NCBI RefSeq assembly: GCF_008629695.1
Contig: NZ_VWSH01000004.1
Location: 62,001-126,000, forward strand
DNA length: 64,000 nucleotides
Origin: Taibaiella lutea
GTDB taxonomy: Bacteria; Bacteroidota; Bacteroidia; Chitinophagales; Chitinophagaceae
Direction of reading: 5' to 3'
Part shown: positions 19,143 to 34,610 of the stretch, in pieces
Position numbering within the stretch: the stretch's first letter is position 1
Layout of the letters: each line of letters begins with the position of its first letter
Position numbers and translations under genes: made by a program
Notes under the pieces: generated by a model
What the model was told of the DNA's origin: nothing
Seen by the model: the letters and a program-made list of their open reading frames with translations, nothing else
The model's database searches: none

Positions 19143-20077
19143 TTATAGCTTCTTATATTTCCTATTCCCAATAAATGCACTGTAAAAGCCATTGTAATCA
19201 TTTTTTGCTGCCGGAACAAGAACAGTCTCCACTTCAAGTGCTTTGAGCAATTGTATCTTATCCGATTTATCAGCTTTTGAAAATTCAGGTATAATCCATC
19301 GGATAGTATTTTTGATTTTTGCCTTTTTTCGCAACAACCTTGCCCTGAAATTCAGCAGGAACCACAAATGGTTTTCTGTATAGTCCATCCCAAACCCAAG
19401 TATATCTATATCACGCGTAAAAAAGAGATGCACCCAGTTTTCATCGGCAGCATCAATCAGGTTACCAAGCCCTTTGCCGCTATTGCTTTTAACCATATGG
19501 TGTACCTTTTCAAGATAATCGGCATAATGTTCAAAGCCAATCATTATGGAAGCCTCGGGATAACTTTGGATCTTTCCTTTATGCCATTATTGCACTCGCC
19601 ATGAATATGCCATACTTTGTTGTTGCCGATCAGGTTATATCGATACAGACTGTACTTGGGCCTTTTCAGGTATTTGCCTGTTTGGCCCTCATACACATCA
19701 TCAATCGACCTTTCTATACAATAATCATAATTAGTAGTAATGAAATGTTGGTAGATACCACTATTCACAAGTTCCATGCACCTGTCGTGCGGCTTTAACT
19801 TCATTGCTTCCTCTCCAAGTAAAACTTTCAGTTGCCGTATATTGTCCTCAATCCTTCCGCTGCCGTTCATAGCAAAAGCCATCTCTTCAAATAGCAAAGT
19901 ATTGGATTTCCGTTCATCCAAGTCGATATTTATATTCACTTTGCTTTTTATGTTATTCAACAGTTCCTTCCATGATATCGAATCCTGATGAAGCTGATTA
20001 ATGCCATTTCTAAGGAAAAGATATCTTTCTTCTTTCCGATAATAACTTTCAAGCGATGCGTAGTTTCTGTCTGCCAT
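19143..20077 (-). pseudogene. SIR2-like domain protein, frameshifted
   Basis: Two consecutive minus-strand frames, 20077-19544 (177 aa) and 19544-19143 (133 aa), together look like one SIR2-like (SIR2_2-type) protein. The first has the N-terminal nucleotide-binding segment YLFLRNGINQ followed by SISWKELL, then HFITTNYDYCIE and the active-site strand VWHIHGEC. It then derails into KERSKVIPRLP. The second frame, read upstream of its ATG, gives KGKIQSYPEASIMIGFEHY, the expected continuation. One base missing near 19570-19585 explains the break. SIR2-like domains bind NAD and are often found in antiphage defence; a role here is inference. It is either a real pseudogene or a sequencing error. Confidence 0.7.
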
Positions 20078-22092: not shown

Positions 22093-24249
22093 ATGGCAAA
22101 GAAAGCGACACCTCAAAAAGAAGATAAAAAAGAAATCGACCTTAATTTAAATAAGGAAAATAGTACAGAAACCTTTATGACTACCGATCAGGGAGTTAAA
22201 ATAAATGATGATACGAATTCTTTGAAAGCGGGTGAACGGGGGCCGTCACTTTTAGAAGATTTTATTCTCCGGGAAAAAATTACTCACTTTGATCATGAAA
22301 GGATTCCCGAAAGAGTAGTGCATGCAAGAGGAGCTGCAGCCCACGGTTATTTTCAGGTTTATGAATCTATGAGCAAATATACTAAAGCAGGCTTTTTGCA
22401 GGATCCCTCCTTAAAGACACCTGTCTTTGTCCGTTTCTCCACTGTAGCGGGTTTCCGTGGTTCTACCGATCTGGCAAGAGATGTAAGAGGATTTGCGGTT
22501 AAATTTTACACAGAAGAAGGTAACTATGATTTAGTCGGTAATAATATTCCTGTCTTTTTTATTCAGGATGCTATTAAATTCCCCGATCTTATCCATGCTG
22601 TTAAACCTGAGCCGAATAATGAAATACCACAGGCTGCAAGCGCACACGATACGTTCTGGGATTTCATTTCCTTAACACCCGAATCCATGCATATGATTAT
22701 GTGGGCAATGTCAGACAGGGCTTTACCCCGCAGTTACCGTATGATGGAAGGATTTGGCGTCCATACATTTCGCTTTATAAATGAAAAAGGCATTGCTCAT
22801 TTTGTGAAGTTCCATTGGAAACCATTGTTAGGCATACATTCTGTTGTATGGGATGAGGCGCAAAAAATTTCAGGAAAAGATCCTGATTTTCACAGACGTG
22901 ATCTTTATGAAGCTATTGAGAACGGCGCTTATCCGGAGTGGGAGTTTGGCGTTCAGATTATACCTGAAAAAGACGAACATAAATATGGTTTTGATTTGCT
23001 GGATCCTACAAAGCTGATTCCGGAAGAATTGGTTCCTGTACAGCGAATAGGGAAAATGGTTTTAAATCGTAACCCTGATAACTTTTTTGCAGAAACAGAA
23101 CAAGTTGCCTTCCATCCGGGTCATGTAGTTCCCGGAATTGATTTTACAAATGATCCTTTGTTGCAGGGAAGGTTATTTTCATATACAGATACACAATTGT
23201 CAAGGCTTGGAAGTCCGAATTTCCATGAGATTCCAATCAACAGGTCTGTTAATGCCGTTCATAATAACCAGAGAGACGGCCACATGCGGCAGCAAATAAA
23301 TAAAGGCCAGGCCAGTTATCATCCTAACACACTTGGTGGCGGATGCCCTTATCAGGCCAAAATGTCGGAAGGAGGTTTTGCTTCCTATCAGGAAAGGGTT
23401 GATGGAAATAAAGTCCGTGCAAGAAGCCAAAGTTTCATGGATTTTTTCAGTCAGGCCACTTTGTTTTTTTCCAGTCAGTCCAAACCCGAACAAAAACATA
23501 TTATTGATGCTTTGCGTTTTGAATTGGGCAAAGTACAGACGGTTGCTATCAGACAACGAATGATAGGTTTACTGGCTTATGTTGACAAAAAGCTTGCGAA
23601 AGAAGTTGCAGATAACCTTGGACTGGAAGTAATGCCCGTTGAAGGTTTGCTGAACCATAATTTTGGTGCAGATGCCAATCCCGAAGATTATCAGAATCAT
23701 AAAGCTAAGCAATCTATTACTCAATCTCCTGCACTAAGTATGGCCGGTAGTGCAAAATCAGTACAAACAAGACAGGTGGCTATTCTTGCTGCTAATGGCG
23801 TTGACGGAGCTTCATTAAAAAAAGTGAAAAATGCGGTAGAAAAAGAAGGAGGACAAGTAAAAATAGTTGCATTGACCAATGGCGCCATTACAGATAATAA
23901 AGGCAATTCCATTCCAGTAGATATGAGTTTACTTACATCGGCTTCCGTCCTTTTTGATGCCCTTTATCTTCCGGATGGGGAGCAGAATAATAAAGCTTTA
24001 CAGCAGGACGGCGATGCAATTCATTTTATTAATGAAACTTACAAACACTGTAAAGCCATAGCTGCCGATGGTGCAGGCGCAGAACTTCTGAATGCAAGTT
24101 ATGTCGGCATGAAAATAAAAGATAAAGCAAATGATAACCCGGGTGTTTTCATAGGCAAGTCATCCAATGGATCTATCGTTGCAGATTTTGTCAGTGCAAT
24201 ACCTACACGCTTTTATGAAAGAGAAGAAAAAGGTAAGGTGCCAGCTTAA
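22093..24249 (+). CDS. katE: Large-subunit catalase (clade II, KatE/HPII type)
   Basis: 718 residues, the size of large-subunit heme catalases that dismutate hydrogen peroxide. Visible are the catalytic His in [14 protein letters not shown], the [19 protein letters not shown] segment and the distal Asn in [10 protein letters not shown]. The heme-ligand Tyr lies in [14 protein letters not shown]. The C-terminal ~150 residues (from [19 protein letters not shown]) form the DJ-1/PfpI-like domain typical of HPII. The frame is open further upstream, but ATG 22093 ([11 protein letters not shown]) is the expected start. A small acidic protein follows 57 bp downstream, before the shared terminator. 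Confidence 0.95.
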
Positions 24250-24880: not shown

Positions 24881-24888
24881 TACATTTG
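24881..24888 (+). promoter_or_regulatory. -7 element before the polysaccharide operon
   Basis: TACATTTG is an exact TAnnTTTG match, 63 bp before the first start codon of the operon at 24952. No good -33 box at ideal spacing. Confidence 0.5.
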
Positions 24889-24951: not shown

Positions 24952-25332
24952 ATGAATAGGATTTTAGTTATTGACGATGATGAAATTATCCAAAACGTGC
25001 TTGAAAAGGTTTTGACCAAAGAAGGACACCATGTAGAAATTGCAAAAAATGGCAAAGAAGGATTGCAAAAACTGGACCTTATGCCTTATGAAATTGTAAT
25101 TACTGACCTTATGATGCCTTATGCAAATGGTTTTGAAATCATCAGTAAATTAAAACAACACCCTAATACCGAAAAAGCATCTATCATAGTTATATCGTCC
25201 ATCACTCAGGAAGACTCCGTTATGGATAGTTTCAAACTTGGTGTGGATGAATATATAAGAAAGCCTATGATGGTAGGTGAGCTTTTACTTCGTGTCAATA
25301 AACTTTTAGCCAACAGATCGAAATATGCCTGA
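24952..25332 (+). CDS. Single-domain response regulator leading the polysaccharide operon
   Basis: 126 residues, a receiver alone: IDDDEIIQ acidic cluster, acceptor Asp in VITDLMMPYANG, Ser switch in IVISSITQ and Lys in YIRKPMM. It overlaps the next gene (HEAT protein) by 8 bp. It has no output domain, so it most likely acts by binding a partner, plausibly the HEAT protein or the GT2 synthases encoded in the same operon. That would make polysaccharide synthesis switchable by phosphorylation (inference). Confidence 0.9.
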   Translation: MNRILVIDDDEIIQNVLEKVLTKEGHHVEIAKNGKEGLQKLDLMPYEIVITDLMMPYANGFEIISKLKQHPNTEKASIIVISSITQEDSVMDSFKLGVDEYIRKPMMVGELLLRVNKLLANRSKYA

Positions 25333-26479
25333 TATTTTACCGGTAAATGAAACCGGTGAAGGCTTTACAATTCCTTATTTCGATCAATGGATGGCAATGC
25401 CTGTCATTATCAGAGTAGCGGTTGTTTTCATTGGTATCTCAACGATATTTATATTATATATCCAGTTCAGGATATGGTTTACACGTTATAAAGGTTATCT
25501 CCTTAATAAACGGGTTGAAAAAGTAGTGCCTGTTATTGATGCGCTTATTGCAGAAGAAATCTTTATGAAAAGTGAAACGGGTCAGAAAGGCGCACCTCAT
25601 ATTAATTTTGATGCCTTCAGGATTCCATTGTTTGCCAATCATAAAAACAAACAGATTCTGATTGATCGCCTGATTAACTACAGAAGAAGTTTTTCAGGAA
25701 GCATTGGCAATCATTTTAAGCAATTGTACCTGGAGCTCGGGCTGGATAAGCTTTCGACTAAAAAGATGAACCGCCGCAGCTGGAATATGAAAGTACGCGG
25801 CATTCGTGAATTAACCGGTATGGATGTATCCATTTCCGATGTAAACATATTGCCGCTTACCAATAGCAAACGGCACGAATTACGTACGGAAGCAAGAAAT
25901 GCATATATCAAACTAAGTAAAAATGAGCCTTTCAAATTTTTTGATATCAGTTCGGAGCCTTTGCTTGACTGGGATCAGATTGAATTGTTCAAGACTATTA
26001 CTACAACAGAAAATATCGCCATACCAAACTTTGCACGTTGGGTAACTTATAGCAACAACAAAAGTATCATATCCTTCTGCCTGAAACTGATTGTACATTA
26101 CAATCAGCAAGATGCTGCGCCTGCCGTAATAAAATTGCTGGAAACGAAGGATCATATCTTAAGAGCTGAAGCTATTAATTGTCTGGGTAAATTAAAATAC
26201 GAACCGGCAGAAGCCCAGCTCAGGCACATTTATAGTAACCAGCCTTTAAATTGCCAACTTGAAATATTAAAAGCCATCGGCCGTATGTCAACCGGAGAAA
26301 GCGCCCAGTTCCTTCGTCAGGAATTTATGTATTCTACCGACTTCGACATTCGTAAAAATGCTGCTATGTCTTTTGTTCGCAACGCGAGTCCCGAATATAT
26401 TGATGAATTGATGGAAGCTTCAAACGATGAGAATAAACTCATATTGAAGCATAGTATGAACCCTTTAATCAAATATTAA
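25325..26479 (+). CDS. Membrane-anchored HEAT-repeat protein
   Basis: 384 residues. A single membrane helix at about 20-43 (VIIRVAVVFIGISTIFILYI) is followed by a cytoplasmic helical domain. The C-terminal part has HEAT-like pairs: AAPAVIKLLETKDHILRAEA, then AINCLGKLKYEPAEAQLRHI and LEILKAIGRMSTGESAQFLR, then the DIRKNAAMSFVRNAS pair. HEAT repeats are protein-interaction scaffolds. Lying between a lone receiver and two GT2 synthases, with 8-bp and 1-bp overlaps, it probably links signal input to the synthase complex (inference). Confidence 0.85.
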   Translation: MPDILPVNETGEGFTIPYFDQWMAMPVIIRVAVVFIGISTIFILYIQFRIWFTRYKGYLLNKRVEKVVPVIDALIAEEIFMKSETGQKGAPHINFDAFRIPLFANHKNKQILIDRLINYRRSFSGSIGNHFKQLYLELGLDKLSTKKMNRRSWNMKVRGIRELTGMDVSISDVNILPLTNSKRHELRTEARNAYIKLSKNEPFKFFDISSEPLLDWDQIELFKTITTTENIAIPNFARWVTYSNNKSIISFCLKLIVHYNQQDAAPAVIKLLETKDHILRAEAINCLGKLKYEPAEAQLRHIYSNQPLNCQLEILKAIGRMSTGESAQFLRQEFMYSTDFDIRKNAAMSFVRNASPEYIDELMEASNDENKLILKHSMNPLIKY

Positions 26480-27912
26480 TGCATTCTATACTCCAATGGA
26501 TTGCTGCTTTCTACGAAAGCACCGTGTTTGTCTATGGCTCGGTGCTGTTGGTTATATATGCGTTACTGGCTCTTTTGAGTTATATGGCTATCCGTGTTTT
26601 CTTACAAAAGGAAACCTATACCGATTATAGTGATCTGCTCAGTTCTGACCTTGCACCGGGCATATCTGTACTCGCACCTGCATACAATGAAGGTTTATCC
26701 ATCATCATGAATGTGCAGTCGCTCCTGACCTTGAATTATCCTGTATTTGAAATCATTCTTGTAAATGATGGCAGTACCGATAATTCTATGGAACAGCTTA
26801 TTAAAGAATTTGAATTAGTAAGAGTTGATTTTGCTTATAACCCGAAAATCAGGACCAAGCCGATTAATAATATTTATCGTTCCACCAATACAGCTTTCAG
26901 CAAACTGACCGTAATTGATAAAGTGAACGGCAAGAGCAAAGCAGATGCGGTAAATGCTGGAATCAATGTTGCTTCATTTGATTACTTTGTTTGTACTGAC
27001 GTTGATTGCATTCTGGATAAAGATGCTTTGTTGAAATTGATAAAGCCTGTAATGGATGAACAATCAAAAAGAGTAATAGCAACCGGCGCTACTCTGAGGA
27101 TTGCAAATTCATGCGTGATTGACAAAGGTGTTATTATTCAGATGAAGCCGCCACGAAACCTAATAGCACGTTTTCAGGAGATGGAATACGTACGCGCTTT
27201 TATATTAGGTAAGATGGGGTGGAGCTTTATCAACTGTGTGCCGAATGTATCAGGAGGTCTTGGTTTGTTTGATAAAGAAATTGCAATTAAAGCAGGTGGC
27301 TATGATCCTCTTTCATTCGGAGAAGACATGGAACTGATGGTCCGCATGTGTCGTTATGCCTGCGATAACCAGATAAAGTATGCCATACGATATATTCCTA
27401 CGACCCTTTGCTGGACCGAAGGACCGGCAAATATTAAAGTATTGAAAGCACAACGCACCAGATGGGCCAGAGGGCTTGCCCAACTTATGTATGCGCATTT
27501 TAAAATGTGCTTCAACCCAAGATATGGCCGCATGGGAATGATTACATTTCCTTACAATTTTTTCTTCGAACTGCTGGCCCCTCTTATAGAGCTTAGTGGT
27601 ATCCTGTATTATATTTTTCTGATTGTTACAGGTGGCGTCAATTATCAATATGCAATATTGCTGCTGTTGTTTGTTTATTCCTATTCCATTATGATTACCA
27701 CCATAGCCATTCTATGGGATCAGATTGCATTCAGGCATTATAAATCCTGGAAAGAAGTGTTATTCCTGTGCTCTACCGCTTTATTTGAATTCGTTTTATA
27801 TCATCCGCTGGTGGTTATATTTTCTCTGAGAGGCTATTATTATTTTCTCACGGGCAAGAAACATTCATGGGGCAATATGCAAAGGCAGGGATTTGCACAG
27901 GTAAAACAATAA
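26479..27912 (+). CDS. Processive family-2 glycosyltransferase (polysaccharide synthase)
   Basis: 477 residues. An N-terminal membrane helix (about 14-36) precedes a GT-A domain. Its motifs are VLAPAYNEG, LVNDGSTDN (first Asp), CTDVDCIL (DxD type), GEDMELM (catalytic ED) and QRTRWARG (QxxRW). These define processive beta-glycan synthases such as those for poly-GlcNAc, cellulose or hyaluronan. Three or four C-terminal membrane helices (about 355-460) would form the translocation channel. The sugar cannot be read from sequence. It overlaps the HEAT gene by one base and is followed 30 bp later by a paralogue. Confidence 0.92.
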   Translation: MHSILQWIAAFYESTVFVYGSVLLVIYALLALLSYMAIRVFLQKETYTDYSDLLSSDLAPGISVLAPAYNEGLSIIMNVQSLLTLNYPVFEIILVNDGSTDNSMEQLIKEFELVRVDFAYNPKIRTKPINNIYRSTNTAFSKLTVIDKVNGKSKADAVNAGINVASFDYFVCTDVDCILDKDALLKLIKPVMDEQSKRVIATGATLRIANSCVIDKGVIIQMKPPRNLIARFQEMEYVRAFILGKMGWSFINCVPNVSGGLGLFDKEIAIKAGGYDPLSFGEDMELMVRMCRYACDNQIKYAIRYIPTTLCWTEGPANIKVLKAQRTRWARGLAQLMYAHFKMCFNPRYGRMGMITFPYNFFFELLAPLIELSGILYYIFLIVTGGVNYQYAILLLLFVYSYSIMITTIAILWDQIAFRHYKSWKEVLFLCSTALFEFVLYHPLVVIFSLRGYYYFLTGKKHSWGNMQRQGFAQVKQ

Positions 27913-27942
27913 GCAGGCAGGCACAATTATATTCAAAAGAAA

Positions 27943-29448
27943 ATGGAAACAAGTATTTGGGATTATTTCAGTTCATTTTTCGAACGTGGCGTATTCATCT
28001 ATGGGATGACTATGCTTTTGGCTTATGCCTTACTTGCCATTCTTTCTTACATTGCCATCAACCGCTTTCGCAAAAAGGAACAATATACTGACTACAGCCA
28101 GCTTACAAGCTCGACCCTTGCTCCGGGCATTTCTGTTATAGCCCCGGCTTTCAATGAAGCTGTTACCATCATTCAAAACGTGCGTTCGCTGCTGACACTG
28201 AATTATTCGAGATATGAAGTGATTATTGTAAATGATGGTAGTACTGACGAAACGCTTCAGAAACTGATTGACGAATTCGATCTTGTTCATGTTGATTTTG
28301 CATACAACGAAAAAATTAAATCAAAACCGGTCCGGAGAATATTCAAATCGTCCAACACTGCGTATGAAAAGCTGGTAGTAATTGATAAAGAAAACGGAAA
28401 GAGTAAAGCCGATGCATCGAATGCAGGTATCAATGTTGCTTCTTTCAACTATTTTTTGTGTACCGATGTGGATTGTATTATCGAGAAAGACACTTTGATA
28501 AAAATGATTCAGCCTTTTATGTCGGAAGAAGGCAGGAAGATAAAAGAGGTTGGTGAGCCCTGCCCTGAATGCGGTTATGTTCATGTTATTGAAGACAATA
28601 AAAGAGTTATTGCGACAGGTGCAACCTTGCGTATTGCCAATTCAAGCGATATTGAAGATGGCGTATTGGTACGCATGCGTCCTCCAAAGCACTGGATTCC
28701 ACGTTTTCAGGAAATGGAATATATACGTTCCTATGTTCTTGGAAAGATGGGGTGGAGTATGATCAACTGTGTACCGAATGTTTCAGGAGGCCTGGGTTTG
28801 TTTGACAAAGAAATTGCGATCAAGGCAGGAGGCTATGATCCGTTATCCTTTGGTGAGGATATGGATCTTGTAACACGTATGTGTGCTTACATGCGTGACA
28901 ACAAACAAAAATATGCCGTAAGATATATTCCTTCGACACAGTGCTGGACGGAAGGACCGCCAAACCTGAAAGTATTCGGAAGGCAACGTACACGTTGGGG
29001 AAGGGGCCTGATTCAGATAATCACCATCCATAAAAAAATACTGTTTAATCCCAGATACGGAAGATTGGGCTTAGTGGTATTTCCCTATAACTTTCTGTTC
29101 GAGTTTTTAGCGCCTATTATTGAGTTTTGCGGTATCCTTTACTACATATACATTTTAATTACAGGGCAGATAAACGTACAAAATGCATTGGTATTACTGC
29201 TTTTTGTGTACCTGTATTCTGTAATGATTACTACCATTTCTTTGTTTTGGGATCAATTGGTAAACCGCAATTATAAAACATGGGCGGAGGTTTTCGGGCT
29301 TAGTTTAATGGCGTTCCTGGAACCCATTATTTACCATCCGCTCATTGTGTTTTTTGCATTGCGTGGGTATTATTATTTCATTACAGGGCAAAAGCACGTT
29401 TGGGGCAACATGCAAAGGCAAGGCTTTGGACAAGCTCCTAAAAAATAA
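27943..29448 (+). CDS. Paralogous processive family-2 glycosyltransferase
   Basis: 501 residues with the same plan as the preceding enzyme: N-terminal helix, VIAPAFNEA, VNDGSTDET, CTDVDCII, GEDMDLV and QRTRWGRG, then C-terminal membrane helices. Long stretches are nearly identical (GGLGLFDKEIAIKAGGYDPL in both), showing tandem duplication. It differs by an insertion of about 22 residues before KRVIATGATLRIAN containing CPECGYVHV, a possible half zinc knuckle. The pair might be a heterodimeric synthase or make two related polymers. Confidence 0.92.
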   Translation: METSIWDYFSSFFERGVFIYGMTMLLAYALLAILSYIAINRFRKKEQYTDYSQLTSSTLAPGISVIAPAFNEAVTIIQNVRSLLTLNYSRYEVIIVNDGSTDETLQKLIDEFDLVHVDFAYNEKIKSKPVRRIFKSSNTAYEKLVVIDKENGKSKADASNAGINVASFNYFLCTDVDCIIEKDTLIKMIQPFMSEEGRKIKEVGEPCPECGYVHVIEDNKRVIATGATLRIANSSDIEDGVLVRMRPPKHWIPRFQEMEYIRSYVLGKMGWSMINCVPNVSGGLGLFDKEIAIKAGGYDPLSFGEDMDLVTRMCAYMRDNKQKYAVRYIPSTQCWTEGPPNLKVFGRQRTRWGRGLIQIITIHKKILFNPRYGRLGLVVFPYNFLFEFLAPIIEFCGILYYIYILITGQINVQNALVLLLFVYLYSVMITTISLFWDQLVNRNYKTWAEVFGLSLMAFLEPIIYHPLIVFFALRGYYYFITGQKHVWGNMQRQGFGQAPKK

Positions 29449-29479
29449 ATTTACAATCGAAAAACTACACAGATCAACT

Positions 29480-32341
29480 ATGAAAAGAAGATCCCTGTTT
29501 ATAATTATTGTTTTGTTTGCAATAAGCCTTCCGCAAGTGTTCGGGCAAAAGAAAGACAGCGATGTATTGCTGAAGCAGATTAAAACCGAAATGGATGTAA
29601 ACCGCAATTATGCCAGGGCCTTGTCTATGGCTAAGGACGCAGCAAAAGACTTTCCGCATGATGCCGATTTCAGATTCTTATTAGGTCGCCTGTATTACCT
29701 CAACCGTGATTATATCAATGCAGAAAAGAAACTGGATGAGGTGATTAATAAGACACCTGAATACAGAGATGCTTATCTGGCCGCTGCAAATGTGCAACTG
29801 GCAAAAGGTTACAACAATAAAGCTTTACAATATCTAAACAGGGGTCAGTCAAAATTTAATTATGACAAAGATATCAGAGCAAAAAAACTGGCAGTATATC
29901 AATTTTATGGACTATATCAATTAGGTGATTTATATGCCGACAGCCTTATCAATATGTTCTACAGAGACACAATGATAAAAAGGGCTTATGTGGATTACAG
30001 AGTTCAGACAGGGAATGCATTTCTGAAAAATGGATTGACAGAAGCAGCTAACCGGGAATTTGCAAAGGCAATCCAGGTAGCGCCCGAGAATCAAATAGTA
30101 TTATCAAGCTTATTGGATGCAAGAATGAAATCAGGAGATAAGCAAAGCTCTTTAAATTTCATAAACAGCATGTTGTCGCGCCAACCTGATAATTATGATT
30201 TGCTGATGAAGAAAACCGGCATCCTGCAGGAATTGCATCAATATCCTGAAGCGATAGAGACAGCGCAGATTCTTCAAAAAAAATATCCAGGTGATGCAAA
30301 AGCACGTTCAATTGAAACGGAGCTTAAGCTGGAAGCAGCACGTTATTACAAGAGTACTGACCCTTACTATCAATATCAAAGTGTGCTGGAACACGCTCCG
30401 GGCAATAAAGAAGCATTAGACAATATCATAAATATTGCAATCAGCAGAGGCATGAATGACGAAGCGTTGTATTGGATAAATAAATCGCTTGGCAGTAATT
30501 CTTTTAATAAAGATCTGCTCATGAAGAAAATGAGCATTCTTGCACAGCAGCAAAAATTTACGATTGCAGCAGGTATTGCTGAAAGGCTTTATAAAAATGC
30601 TCCGGGCAAAGATACGCGCCAGACTTTCATTGACATGGAACTGGCCGCCGCAAGAGATTACAATGCTCAGGAAATGCCCGACAGCGCGTTGGATGCTTAT
30701 ACAAAAATATTGAAAGCGGAGCCAAGGCAGGCACAGGCGTTGAATAGTTCGGTCAACATCCTTTCCGCTCAAAAAAACTATACGGCGGCACTACAACTTC
30801 TGGATGAAGCCATTACCTATTACCCTGACGACTACAGATTGAAATTAAAGAAAGCTGCGATTATGCAGGAGAATGAACAATTTGATGAAGCAGCATTATT
30901 ATTTGATCAGGTACAGGCGGATAATCCGGACGATCAGAAAGCCATTAACAGCATGGTGGACGCTTATCTGCTTACGGGCAAAAAGATGATGGAAGTTATG
31001 GATTATGACGGCGCTGCAAAAGCTTATAACAGAATATTACAAATACAGCCCGCCAACAAAGAAGCCATAAATAACATAACGAATATAGATCTTGCTTTAG
31101 GCGGGGATGGCAATCAACGTGCCCTTGACAGAATCAACATTGCATTGGAGCAATACCCGGATGATAAAGATTTATTACTTAAAAAAGCAGAAGCGTTAAA
31201 CCGCCTGGGGCAGGTAGAGGCTTCCGGCAATATTACGGACAACCTCCGGGAACGTTATCCTTATAACACACAAATCCGCAGTCTTTATATAGATCAGCAT
31301 TTAACAATGGCCAATTATTACCGAAAAAACGGCGATACGTTAAATGCCATAAATGCTTATTACAGCATTCTTTCAGCCAACAGAAGAGACACAACCGCAT
31401 GGCTTGGATTAACCAATATCAGTTACGAACGCGGACAATATGCCGAGGCGATTGCTTATGCCGATACGTCATTGAATTTTTATCCCATGCAGGCAGATAT
31501 GATGCTGAAAAAAGCATCGGCACAGGAGCAGCTAAAACAGTATGACAGCGCTGCCAATACTGCCGCAGTTGTTGCCAGACAATATCCTGACCAGAAGCGT
31601 TATACTGATTTTGCGGCTTATCTTAAAGGAAAAACATTCAGGAATCAATTAGGCCTTTCGTATCTCAATTCGCATATCGATTCTACGCAGTCATCTAATA
31701 TTGCAACCTTGCAATACACGCATTTTTATAAAAAAATGTCGTTGACAGGTCGCCTGAATTTTGCGGGAAGATCGTATGGGACGGGGTTACAGCTTGAATT
31801 GGAATCCTATATTAATCATAGCGCAACCTGGTATTCATTTGTAAATGTAGGTGCTGCCAATAAATTGGTGTTCCCGAAATATAAAGCTGCATATAGTTTG
31901 TTTCACAATTTTGCACATGGTTGGGAAGCCGAGCTGGGTGGCCGTTTCCTTAATTTTGATTCCATATCAAGCGTATCGGCAGTTGGCTCCGTTGCAAAAT
32001 ATCTTGGTGATTTCTGGATTAATGCAAAAGGTTATGTCATTTTTCTTTCCGGCAAACAATATGGCGCTGTTAATCTCACCGCACGTCAGTACCTGAATAA
32101 TAAAACCGATTTCTTTTATGCAATCATAGGTTATGGCAACTCACCTGATGACTATACACGTACCTATCAATTCACCGATAATATCAATTACCAGACTTAT
32201 AGTATTGGTGCAGGTTATCAAAAAATGTTCAATTACAGAAATGTGGTAAGCCTTAACGCCAACTGGTATAACCAAAAAAGAGCAGAGGGTCTGTTTCGCA
32301 ACCAGTATGATATCTACCTGACCTTTTTAAGGAAATTCTAA
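29480..32341 (+). CDS. TPR protein with C-terminal YaiO-type outer-membrane barrel
   Basis: 953 residues from ATG 29480 (an earlier start would overlap the GT2 gene in another frame). A signal peptide (MKRRSLFIIIVLFAISLPQVFGQ cleaved near residue 22) precedes about 20 TPR-like helix pairs, for example FRFLLGRLYYLNRDYINAEK, ALNSSVNILSAQKNYTAALQ and TAWLGLTNISYERGQYAEAI. The last ~240 residues, from FRNQLGLSYLNSHID to YDIYLTFLRKF, look like a YaiO-family beta-barrel. TPR-plus-barrel proteins of this kind (PgaA, AlgK/E, BcsC) export polysaccharide across the periplasm and outer membrane. In E. coli, yaiO likewise sits near a GT2 gene (yaiP). Confidence 0.88.
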   Translation: MKRRSLFIIIVLFAISLPQVFGQKKDSDVLLKQIKTEMDVNRNYARALSMAKDAAKDFPHDADFRFLLGRLYYLNRDYINAEKKLDEVINKTPEYRDAYLAAANVQLAKGYNNKALQYLNRGQSKFNYDKDIRAKKLAVYQFYGLYQLGDLYADSLINMFYRDTMIKRAYVDYRVQTGNAFLKNGLTEAANREFAKAIQVAPENQIVLSSLLDARMKSGDKQSSLNFINSMLSRQPDNYDLLMKKTGILQELHQYPEAIETAQILQKKYPGDAKARSIETELKLEAARYYKSTDPYYQYQSVLEHAPGNKEALDNIINIAISRGMNDEALYWINKSLGSNSFNKDLLMKKMSILAQQQKFTIAAGIAERLYKNAPGKDTRQTFIDMELAAARDYNAQEMPDSALDAYTKILKAEPRQAQALNSSVNILSAQKNYTAALQLLDEAITYYPDDYRLKLKKAAIMQENEQFDEAALLFDQVQADNPDDQKAINSMVDAYLLTGKKMMEVMDYDGAAKAYNRILQIQPANKEAINNITNIDLALGGDGNQRALDRINIALEQYPDDKDLLLKKAEALNRLGQVEASGNITDNLRERYPYNTQIRSLYIDQHLTMANYYRKNGDTLNAINAYYSILSANRRDTTAWLGLTNISYERGQYAEAIAYADTSLNFYPMQADMMLKKASAQEQLKQYDSAANTAAVVARQYPDQKRYTDFAAYLKGKTFRNQLGLSYLNSHIDSTQSSNIATLQYTHFYKKMSLTGRLNFAGRSYGTGLQLELESYINHSATWYSFVNVGAANKLVFPKYKAAYSLFHNFAHGWEAELGGRFLNFDSISSVSAVGSVAKYLGDFWINAKGYVIFLSGKQYGAVNLTARQYLNNKTDFFYAIIGYGNSPDDYTRTYQFTDNINYQTYSIGAGYQKMFNYRNVVSLNANWYNQKRAEGLFRNQYDIYLTFLRKF

Positions 32342-32354
32342 ATGCATTTGAAGT

Positions 32355-34610
32355 ATGAGCAAAGTATTATTCTTTTTGACCACACTTTTTTTACCTGTCG
32401 TTTTAATGACAGCAAGCTGCAAAGGACAATCGCTGAAGCCTGTTGCAGGCGGCGCTTCTGTTTATGCTATTGTTATTGCGGATGGGGCCAACAAAAATGA
32501 TAATGAGTCTGCATTATTACTTCAAAAGTTTATAAAGCAATCAACCGGCGTTCTTCTCAATATTGTAACAGAAAATAAATACAAAGGGAATACAGCTTTT
32601 TACGTCGGACAAACCAGTAAGACAACTGCTCTTAATGAGTTTTCAAAAATTGAAAATGACGGTTACTTGATTGCAACGAAGGAGAAGAACATATTTATAT
32701 CCGGCAGAAGAGGCCATGCTACGGAATATGGTGTTTATCATTTTATAGAAACCTACATGAATTGCAGAAAATATGACGGCTGGCCTGCAATAGTTCCATT
32801 TTTAAAAGAGGTGGTACTACCTGCAGACTTATCCTTTGTTTCCAATCCTTCATTTGTGTATCGTCAAAGTTATTACCCCATGAGTAATGATGCCGAATAC
32901 CTCAACTGGCATGGCTTACACAAATTTGAAGATCTATGGGGCATCTGGGGGCATTCGTTTTTTAAACTGATACCGCCGCAGCAATATTTATCCACGCATC
33001 CTGAATATTTTGCGCTGGTAAACGGCAGGCGTACTCCTACGCAGCTTTGCTTAAGCAACCCGGAAGTATTGAAAATCGTCATTTCAAAACTCAGGCAAAA
33101 GATGACAGATAACCCCGATGCCGAATATTGGTCTGTAAGCCCAAATGACGGCGGCGGCAATTGCAGCTGTGATGACTGTAAAAAAGTTGATGCACAAAAC
33201 GGCGGCCCTTCAGGATCATTGATCCGGTTTGTAAATCAGGTGGCGGCATCTTTTCCCGATAAGAAAATCACAACGCTGGCATATGGTTATACTTCTCATG
33301 CACCAACACACATAAAGCCTGCGGGGAATGTAGTCATTTTATTAAGCACTATAGATGCTTACAGGGAAAAACCATTATCTGAAATTCCTTCTGCAAGCGG
33401 ATTCCGTAATGACCTTACTGCATGGAAAGATATCAGCACCGCAATTTTCATTTGGGATTATTGTACCCAGTTTACAAATTATATGGCTCCGTTCCCTGTC
33501 CAGAATAATTTTCAACCGGATTATAATTTTTTCAAAGATCAGCATGTTACCGGTGTCTTTGAACAGGGTAGTGGTGATACTTATAGTGATATGGCCGAAT
33601 TGAATAGTTATATCCAGGCTAAGTTGTTGTGGAATACCAAGGCAGATATAAAAGCAATTACAGATGATTTTTGTAAAGGTTATTATGGAACCGGCGCATC
33701 ATCTGTACAGCAATATCTTAATGTACGTCAACAGAATCTTATTGCTTCAGGCAAGCATCTTGATATTTATGGCAATCCGATTAATGACCGCAAAAGTTTT
33801 TTGTCACCTGAACAGTTGACAGCATACAATGCATTGATAGCTAAGGCTGCTGCTTCAAACACAAACCCTAAAATATCAGACAATATCGAACGCCTTCAAT
33901 TACCACTTCTATATACAACATTACAACAGTCGAGGCATTACGGAACAGAGGAACATGGTTTCCTTCAGCAAAACAATACGAATGTTTATAAGGTTAACCC
34001 CGAAATAATGAACAAAGTGCATGAATTTGTTGCAAAGGCAAAAAAGGTGGGTGTTGTTGAATTGTCTGAAGGCGGCTATAGCCCTGAAAAATATCAGGAG
34101 GAATGGAATGTCATTTTTGCGCGTACCTGGCCGGTAAATTTATTTTACGATGCAAAAGTAAAACTGGCAACGCCTTTTGCAGAAGATTATCCGGCAAAAG
34201 GCAACCATACATTAACGGATGGCATGACAGGTTTTAATGACTTCAGTTATAACTGGCTTTGCTTTTACGGAACCGATATGGACGCTGTTTTGGACGCAGG
34301 AAAAACAGTGGATTTTAAGACTATCAGTATTAATTTCCTTGACGATCCAAGGCATTGGATTTTCCTTCCCGTAAGTGTCAGCATTGCATTTTCAGATGAC
34401 GGAATAAACTTTAAAACGGCTTCCGAACAAAAAACACCCGTTGAACAGGAACATGATGACCTGTTTATCCGTAATTATAATTTTAAAGTCCCCGGTAAAT
34501 CAAGATATATAAAAGTGATTGCCAGAAACAATACAGGATTGCCTTCATGGAGAAATTACAGCAACAAAAAGCCTATGATTGCATGTGATGAAATTATGGT
34601 TATGCCGTAA
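32355..34610 (+). CDS. DUF4838 lipoprotein, probable glycan-active enzyme
   Basis: 751 residues. The N-terminus ends in VVLMTASCKGQ, a lipoprotein-type signal. The first ~150 residues resemble the alpha-glucuronidase-like N-terminal domain (YAIVIADGAN, then the HATEYGVYHFIETY segment). The central DUF4838 domain (about 175-440) carries EDLWGIWGHSFF, then EYWSVSPNDGGGNCSCDDC with a Cys cluster. The C-terminal ~150 residues look like an F5/8-type beta-sandwich (SINFLDDPRHWIFLPVSVSI). DUF4838 proteins are linked to glycan degradation. Fourteen bases after the YaiO gene, it may trim or modify the exported polymer (inference). Confidence 0.85.
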   Translation: MSKVLFFLTTLFLPVVLMTASCKGQSLKPVAGGASVYAIVIADGANKNDNESALLLQKFIKQSTGVLLNIVTENKYKGNTAFYVGQTSKTTALNEFSKIENDGYLIATKEKNIFISGRRGHATEYGVYHFIETYMNCRKYDGWPAIVPFLKEVVLPADLSFVSNPSFVYRQSYYPMSNDAEYLNWHGLHKFEDLWGIWGHSFFKLIPPQQYLSTHPEYFALVNGRRTPTQLCLSNPEVLKIVISKLRQKMTDNPDAEYWSVSPNDGGGNCSCDDCKKVDAQNGGPSGSLIRFVNQVAASFPDKKITTLAYGYTSHAPTHIKPAGNVVILLSTIDAYREKPLSEIPSASGFRNDLTAWKDISTAIFIWDYCTQFTNYMAPFPVQNNFQPDYNFFKDQHVTGVFEQGSGDTYSDMAELNSYIQAKLLWNTKADIKAITDDFCKGYYGTGASSVQQYLNVRQQNLIASGKHLDIYGNPINDRKSFLSPEQLTAYNALIAKAAASNTNPKISDNIERLQLPLLYTTLQQSRHYGTEEHGFLQQNNTNVYKVNPEIMNKVHEFVAKAKKVGVVELSEGGYSPEKYQEEWNVIFARTWPVNLFYDAKVKLATPFAEDYPAKGNHTLTDGMTGFNDFSYNWLCFYGTDMDAVLDAGKTVDFKTISINFLDDPRHWIFLPVSVSIAFSDDGINFKTASEQKTPVEQEHDDLFIRNYNFKVPGKSRYIKVIARNNTGLPSWRNYSNKKPMIACDEIMVMP

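Follow-up and report, generated by a model that had tools for sequence, protein, structure and literature searches.

Well-studied bacterial polymer synthases of the synthase-dependent type are switched by cyclic di-guanosine monophosphate (c-di-GMP), and a receptor for this nucleotide is typical of the pga, bcs, pel and alg systems, although not of every synthase-dependent system. The cellulose bcsABZC system combines a family 2 glycosyltransferase (GT2) synthase with a periplasmic tetratricopeptide-repeat (TPR) region plus outer-membrane barrel and a glycoside hydrolase. The same parts are encoded by a six-gene operon of Taibaiella lutea that lies in a stretch of 64,000 nucleotides (contig NZ_VWSH01000004.1, positions 62,001 to 126,000; hereafter the window). 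This operon is of the synthase-dependent exopolysaccharide kind, yet it is neither pga nor bcs because its proteins fall below the equivalog cut-offs. Its distinguishing part is a core of a receiver, a HEAT-repeat protein and a GT2 synthase without c-di-GMP. Using Pfam and NCBIfam models for the domain assignments, the following features are obtained.

24952..25332, + strand: receiver gene, a single-domain CheY-like receiver of 126 amino acids (PF00072, 4.1e-24) with D52 (codon 25105-25107) and K104
25325..26479, + strand: HEAT gene, a membrane-anchored HEAT-repeat protein of 384 amino acids (HEAT_2, 2.3e-11)
26479..27912, + strand: GT2a gene, a processive family 2 synthase of 477 amino acids (PF00535/PF13632/PF13641)
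27943..29448, + strand: GT2b gene, a processive family 2 synthase of 501 amino acids (PF00535/PF13632/PF13641)
28531..28596, + strand: insertion in GT2b, 22 residues with the motif PCPECG, after the DxD helix and absent from GT2a
29480..32341, + strand: TPR-YaiO gene (ATG start), a periplasmic TPR array plus YaiO outer-membrane beta-barrel of 953 amino acids, putative exporter
32355..34610, + strand: DUF4838 gene (PF16126), a putative GH163 endo-beta-N-acetylglucosaminidase with an N-terminal hexosaminidase-like and a C-terminal CBM32-like domain, putative lipoprotein

The receiver and HEAT genes overlap by 8 bp and the HEAT and GT2a genes by 1 bp, while the remaining junctions are gaps of 30, 31 and 13 bp. 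An initial annotation, made from the sequence of the window, had described six adjoining open reading frames (ORFs) with these boundaries and domain identities as a polysaccharide operon. The ORF list, the family models and the comparison with other genomes agree with this description and support one conserved unit in which no component of a synthase-dependent exopolysaccharide system is missing. A search with GT2b in a species-representative collection yields 38 loci, 37 of which are strong (individual loci are cited below by labels beginning with L). The closest is from Taibaiella chishuiensis, and an identical gene set is seen in L014 and L021. The conservation of gene order that had been suggested as a check is indeed seen, with all six genes found again in this order in about 30 Chitinophagaceae or Chitinophagaceae-like loci, wherever the contig extends far enough; elsewhere in the phylum single-GT2 versions occur. 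For all six genes the ratio of nonsynonymous to synonymous substitution rates (dN/dS) in close pairs of relatives is 0.009-0.10, indicating purifying selection, although synonymous sites approach saturation in some of the pairs and the values are therefore rough. The shared order and this constraint together show that the operon is not a chance arrangement. Two further genomes from this genus have no HEAT gene, so the operon is accessory.

The likeness to the poly-N-acetylglucosamine system pgaABCD of Escherichia coli lies in a processive GT2 (GT2b and PgaC share 23% identity over 393 columns, 9e-21), an outer-membrane TPR-barrel exporter and a hydrolase of the beta-N-acetylglucosamine (beta-GlcNAc) class. 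In contrast, the window has a receiver, a membrane HEAT protein and two synthases, and neither a PgaB deacetylase nor PgaD is found among its six genes with Pfam and NCBIfam models. PgaC/IcaA is the closest named family for GT2b, yet the two synthases reach only 116 and 107.5 bits with the PgaC equivalog model (cut-off 422.3) and the TPR-YaiO protein only 52.1 bits with that for PgaA (cut-off 366.65). Unlike in bcsABZC, no PilZ, BcsB or GH8 hydrolase is found in the window operon, and the CelA model gives 22-28 bits against a cut-off of 699. The yaiO-yaiX-yaiP-yaiS cluster of E. coli also encodes a YaiO barrel with a GT2 (YaiP), but it contains a putative deacetylase and a broken acyltransferase and has no receiver, HEAT protein or TPR fusion. 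YaiP is moreover distant from the window GT2s, sitting on a long branch in the tree.

Both synthases carry the DxD, ED and QxxRW signature of processive GT2 enzymes, with NDGSTD, CTDVDC, ED and QxxRW all intact (FGED and QRTRW in GT2a). A sequence search of solved structures with GT2b gave no close relative. The TPR-YaiO protein, the sole YaiO copy in the genome, matches the YaiO models PF19413 (1.7e-36, 126.3 bits, cut-off 23.9) and TIGR04390 (88.8 bits, cut-off 32) and contains nine TPR_19 stretches. This domain content is that of a periplasmic TPR plus outer-membrane beta-barrel exporter, and export is its putative function. A BLAST comparison with E. coli YaiO returned nothing, although the family models match.

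The last protein of the operon is the only DUF4838 copy in the genome (PF16126, 4.5e-97, 325.5 bits, cut-off 26.6). A DUF4838 protein has been annotated as GH163, an endo-beta-N-acetylglucosaminidase family (PMC9870897). The closest fold to the predicted model of the window protein (mean predicted local distance difference test, pLDDT, 88.6) is the GH20 enzyme BT0459 (Z 23.0, root-mean-square deviation, rmsd, 11.9 over 535 residues), followed by GH115 with Z 18.2 (rmsd 4.6 over 492) and by GH84 at a Z of about 15. At the C-terminus the domain is CBM32-like, and its many matches include chitosan-binding modules (4zz5, Z 14.7, rmsd 2.4 over 124), but a fold so widespread is hardly informative; it is also essentially the only part picked up by a sequence search of solved structures. 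From the annotation and the model, the protein is likely to be a beta-GlcNAc-active enzyme, and it would supply the glycoside hydrolase or modifying activity that such operons encode beside the synthase. No PgaB/BcsZ-like gene had been recognised in the initial annotation; given the GH163 assignment and the resemblance to GH20 and GH84 hexosaminidases, a plausible counterpart is in fact present. Its description as a lipoprotein holds only in part, as a possible lipobox cysteine occurs in the window copy and some relatives and is missing in L014, L111, L116 and L126, and hence is not conserved. In Polaribacter, a GT2 (MED152_03905) and a GH163 (MED152_03915) rise 8.8- and 18.5-fold together (PMC9870897). 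Their tags are one gene apart, like the GT2-YaiO-DUF4838 order of L116 and L126, and by this analogy we infer that they belong to the present operon type.

Neither GGDEF nor PilZ is matched anywhere in the genome of the window, whereas the same search finds both in E. coli and other controls. The lack of a PilZ component noted initially for the operon thus extends to the whole genome. Because no cyclase and no PilZ are detected, in contrast to pga, control is not by c-di-GMP, and a c-di-GMP receptor acting on the synthase is not found. The receiver protein consists of PF00072 only, with no output domain, and its D52 and K104 make it a CheY-like single-domain response regulator. Among 64 cluster receivers (the L050 entry is wrong, being a LuxR-type receiver), D52 is kept in 59 and K104 in all 64, which makes control by receiver phosphorylation plausible.

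To follow the HEAT protein across the phylum, a profile (A1) with seeds drawn from GT2-bearing loci was run over 395 genomes of Bacteroidota, and the matches were not chosen by neighbourhood. About 51 of these genomes contain HEAT matches at E <= 1e-15 (a hand count from the table). Forty regions together with L017-L020 gave 45 HEAT copies at E < 1e-15, around which ORFs were labelled with purpose-built profiles iterated on the same loci. A GT2 lies directly downstream of HEAT on the same strand in 44 of the 45. Since the GT2 model used matches only five places in the genome of the window, chance adjacency of HEAT and GT2 is negligible. Within 10 kb of HEAT, a distance that does not require a single operon, we find a receiver in 38 cases, YaiO in 36, a sulfatase-fold protein in 24, a histidine kinase in 18 and DUF4838 in nine. 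Receiver, membrane-anchored HEAT protein and synthase are a core that recurs across Bacteroidota. The term 'lone receiver' used initially is therefore apt for the arrangement in this genome but not in general, as the 18 clusters with a histidine kinase show.

Versions with one GT2 are found in Sphingobacteriaceae and other lineages. All six Sphingobacteriaceae loci (L050-L054 and L056) have one GT2 each. In every one of them an actin-like protein separates HEAT from the receiver, and a protein with an epimerase domain separates DUF4838 from YaiO. The actin-like protein (ALP_N) is seen, for example, at L053:7835-8854 and L054:2989-4008. HEAT, one GT2, YaiO and DUF4838 are present in L017, L103, L110 and L120, with a receiver alongside in L017 only, so that L017 has a five-gene order and the other three are receiver-less.

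In the HEAT protein, a long helix (residues 27-84) that includes the single N-terminal transmembrane stretch leads into an alpha-solenoid (model pLDDT 86). A fold search returns designed alphaReps, armadillo repeats and importins, i.e. a generic solenoid with no informative relative. In one HEAT relative (L018:1690-3489) a signal peptide and Pfam-recognised LysM repeats precede the single transmembrane helix, and a signal peptide and LysM before the helix can be read by eye in another (L117:9173-10618). The N-terminus would therefore be outside and the solenoid in the cytoplasm, on the same side as the receiver and the synthase active site. By eye, LysM-like and SPOR-like N-terminal extracytoplasmic stretches are also seen in the relatives from L117 and L102 (8376-10289).

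On this basis, the operon probably encodes a synthase-dependent exopolysaccharide secretion system that is switched after translation by the receiver acting through the HEAT protein. We regard the machinery as well supported, whereas the mechanism of control and the identity of the polymer are inferred. Judging from motifs and family, GT2b and/or GT2a would build the chain from a sugar nucleotide at the cytoplasmic face and pass it out via their own membrane helices. The architecture of the exporter suggests that the chain then runs along the periplasmic TPR array and exits via the YaiO barrel, and the DUF4838/GH163 protein may trim or clear it, as PgaB and BcsZ do elsewhere. The cleavage of beta-GlcNAc bonds by GH163 enzymes, together with PgaC/IcaA as the nearest family of the synthases, makes a polymer with beta-linked (N-acetyl)glucosamine the most likely product, a proposal that we make with moderate confidence. 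The receiver would be phosphorylated by a kinase encoded elsewhere in this genome (within the cluster in relatives) and the phosphorylated form would act post-translationally on the membrane-anchored cytoplasmic solenoid, which in turn may activate, restrain or position the synthase. This order of signalling is suggested by the cytoplasmic solenoid, the retained receiver and the adjacency of HEAT and GT2.

Several observations weigh against this picture. The contact between receiver, HEAT protein and synthase is deduced solely from gene order, and seven of the 45 clusters have no receiver nearby. In L051, L053 and L054 (Sphingobacteriaceae) the phospho-acceptor aspartate is replaced by glutamate and the acidic pocket is altered, so the phospho-switch has probably been lost in these loci, which also gained the actin-like gene. 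Both synthases are far under the PgaC cut-off, which weakens the assignment of the sugar, and the DUF4838 model also resembles the alpha-glucuronidases GH115 and GH67. Finally, only nine of the 45 clusters contain DUF4838, and the sulfatase-fold protein in 24 occurs instead of it or in addition, so that the polymer or its decoration varies.

An alternative is an exopolysaccharide operon in which the receiver is a phosphate sink or has some other target, with the HEAT protein serving constitutively as a scaffold for assembly or localization. HEAT and GT2 stay paired in the seven clusters without a nearby receiver, only 24 of 41 sampled HEAT copies have the receiver immediately before them, the phosphosite is lost in the Sphingobacteriaceae branch, and the LysM repeats of one HEAT relative would suit peptidoglycan anchoring. 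Such a scaffold would nevertheless not call for a receiver in most clusters with its phosphosite so widely kept, nor for the 8 bp overlap of the receiver and HEAT genes in the window, and we hold this explanation to be unlikely, albeit one to be taken seriously.

It is less probable still that the product is a decorated or anchored surface glycan, for example with phosphoglycerol or phosphoethanolamine added by the sulfatase-fold enzymes of relatives: these enzymes are present in 24 of the 45 clusters and several are fused to the GT2 C-terminus, but the window operon holds no sulfatase-fold gene. The fusions of GT2 to a C-terminal sulfatase/alkaline-phosphatase-fold domain (about 1134-1270 amino acids in total) occur in L090, L094, L095, L098, L101, L104, L109, L111, L112, L113 and L124 and are possibly synthase-decorator fusions. 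A membrane protein of about 390 amino acids (373-395) with a recurring DKTV motif stands beside YaiO in sulfatase-type clusters (L090:4613-5800, L095:4343-5530, L099:7724-8875 and L115:13155-14327); the two examples searched, from L090 and L115, have no Pfam match.

That DUF4838 is a catabolic hydrolase of foreign glycans which merely lies beside a polysaccharide operon is improbable. In its favour, the GH163 of Bacteroides thetaiotaomicron cuts GlcNAc-beta-1,2-Man and acts on host N-glycans (PMC10154615), and the GH20 hexosaminidase BT0459 comes from a gut species that degrades glycans. Against it, the window gene is encoded with a synthase and an exporter, DUF4838 comes immediately after YaiO not only in the Chitinophagaceae loci but also in L017, L103, L110, L120, L116 and L126, and no SusC/SusD-type partner was recognised among the identified cluster genes, although no systematic search for one was made.

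The two synthases, GT2a and GT2b, share 63% identity. A FastTree phylogeny of 110 sequences places 29 GT2a sequences in one clade (support 0.986) that is nested, together with the GT2b copies, among the single-copy GT2s of DUF4838-type clusters, while GT2b is not resolved as one clade. A single tandem duplication within the Chitinophagaceae group, with retention of both copies, would account for this topology; by this tree the ancestral state is one GT2, and the duplication does not extend beyond this group. The paralogous pair described initially is thus real here, but it is not the general state. Both copies have dN/dS values of 0.017-0.064 in five pairs of relatives. We considered GT2a as a decaying copy and rejected this, as its motifs are intact and its dN/dS is 0.02-0.05. 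The motif PCxECG is counted in 29 aligned GT2s and the stricter PCxECGY in 24; the former is absent from the GT2a clade, single-copy GT2s and PgaC, and the latter from the GT2a clade and single-copy loci. The 22-residue insertion is accordingly taken as a gain specific to GT2b, and its CPEC element is possibly a metal or redox site. The single GT2s of Sphingobacteriaceae have a different insertion (VIPDTG) at this site.

About 700 bp separate the receiver gene from the end of a catalase ORF at 24249, and a single small ORF can be read by eye in this interval. No exact match to a TTTG-N-TAnnTTTG promoter was found; a lone TACATTTG at 24881 is not counted as evidence. The next listed ORF beyond the DUF4838 gene is on the opposite strand, and the G+C content across the operon is unremarkable. 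Elsewhere in the window, a 177-amino-acid ORF (19544-20077, - strand) resembles, by eye, a fragment of a SIR2-like protein and may be the remnant of a defence gene. Outside the window, a contig labelled Beijerinckiaceae (Alphaproteobacteria), L024, carries a Chitinophagaceae-type operon with 79% identity and is probably a misassigned metagenome contig.

No published description of this module was found in the open-access literature (subscription papers lie outside this search), and the operon survey PMC7112194 contains no mention of Bacteroidetes, HEAT or YaiO. We tentatively suggest that a phylum-wide class of Bacteroidota synthases is gated post-translationally by a phospho-receiver via a membrane HEAT solenoid in place of c-di-GMP and PilZ, with an obligate GT2a/GT2b pair, GT2b carrying the CPEC insertion, in Chitinophagaceae. 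This genome is without detectable c-di-GMP machinery, yet it encodes the same kind of machine with a phylum-conserved receiver-HEAT-synthase core. The core is a concrete candidate for the means by which biofilm-type polysaccharides are controlled in Bacteroidota, and the operon suggests that GH163 can be a partner enzyme in biosynthesis, beyond its catabolic role.

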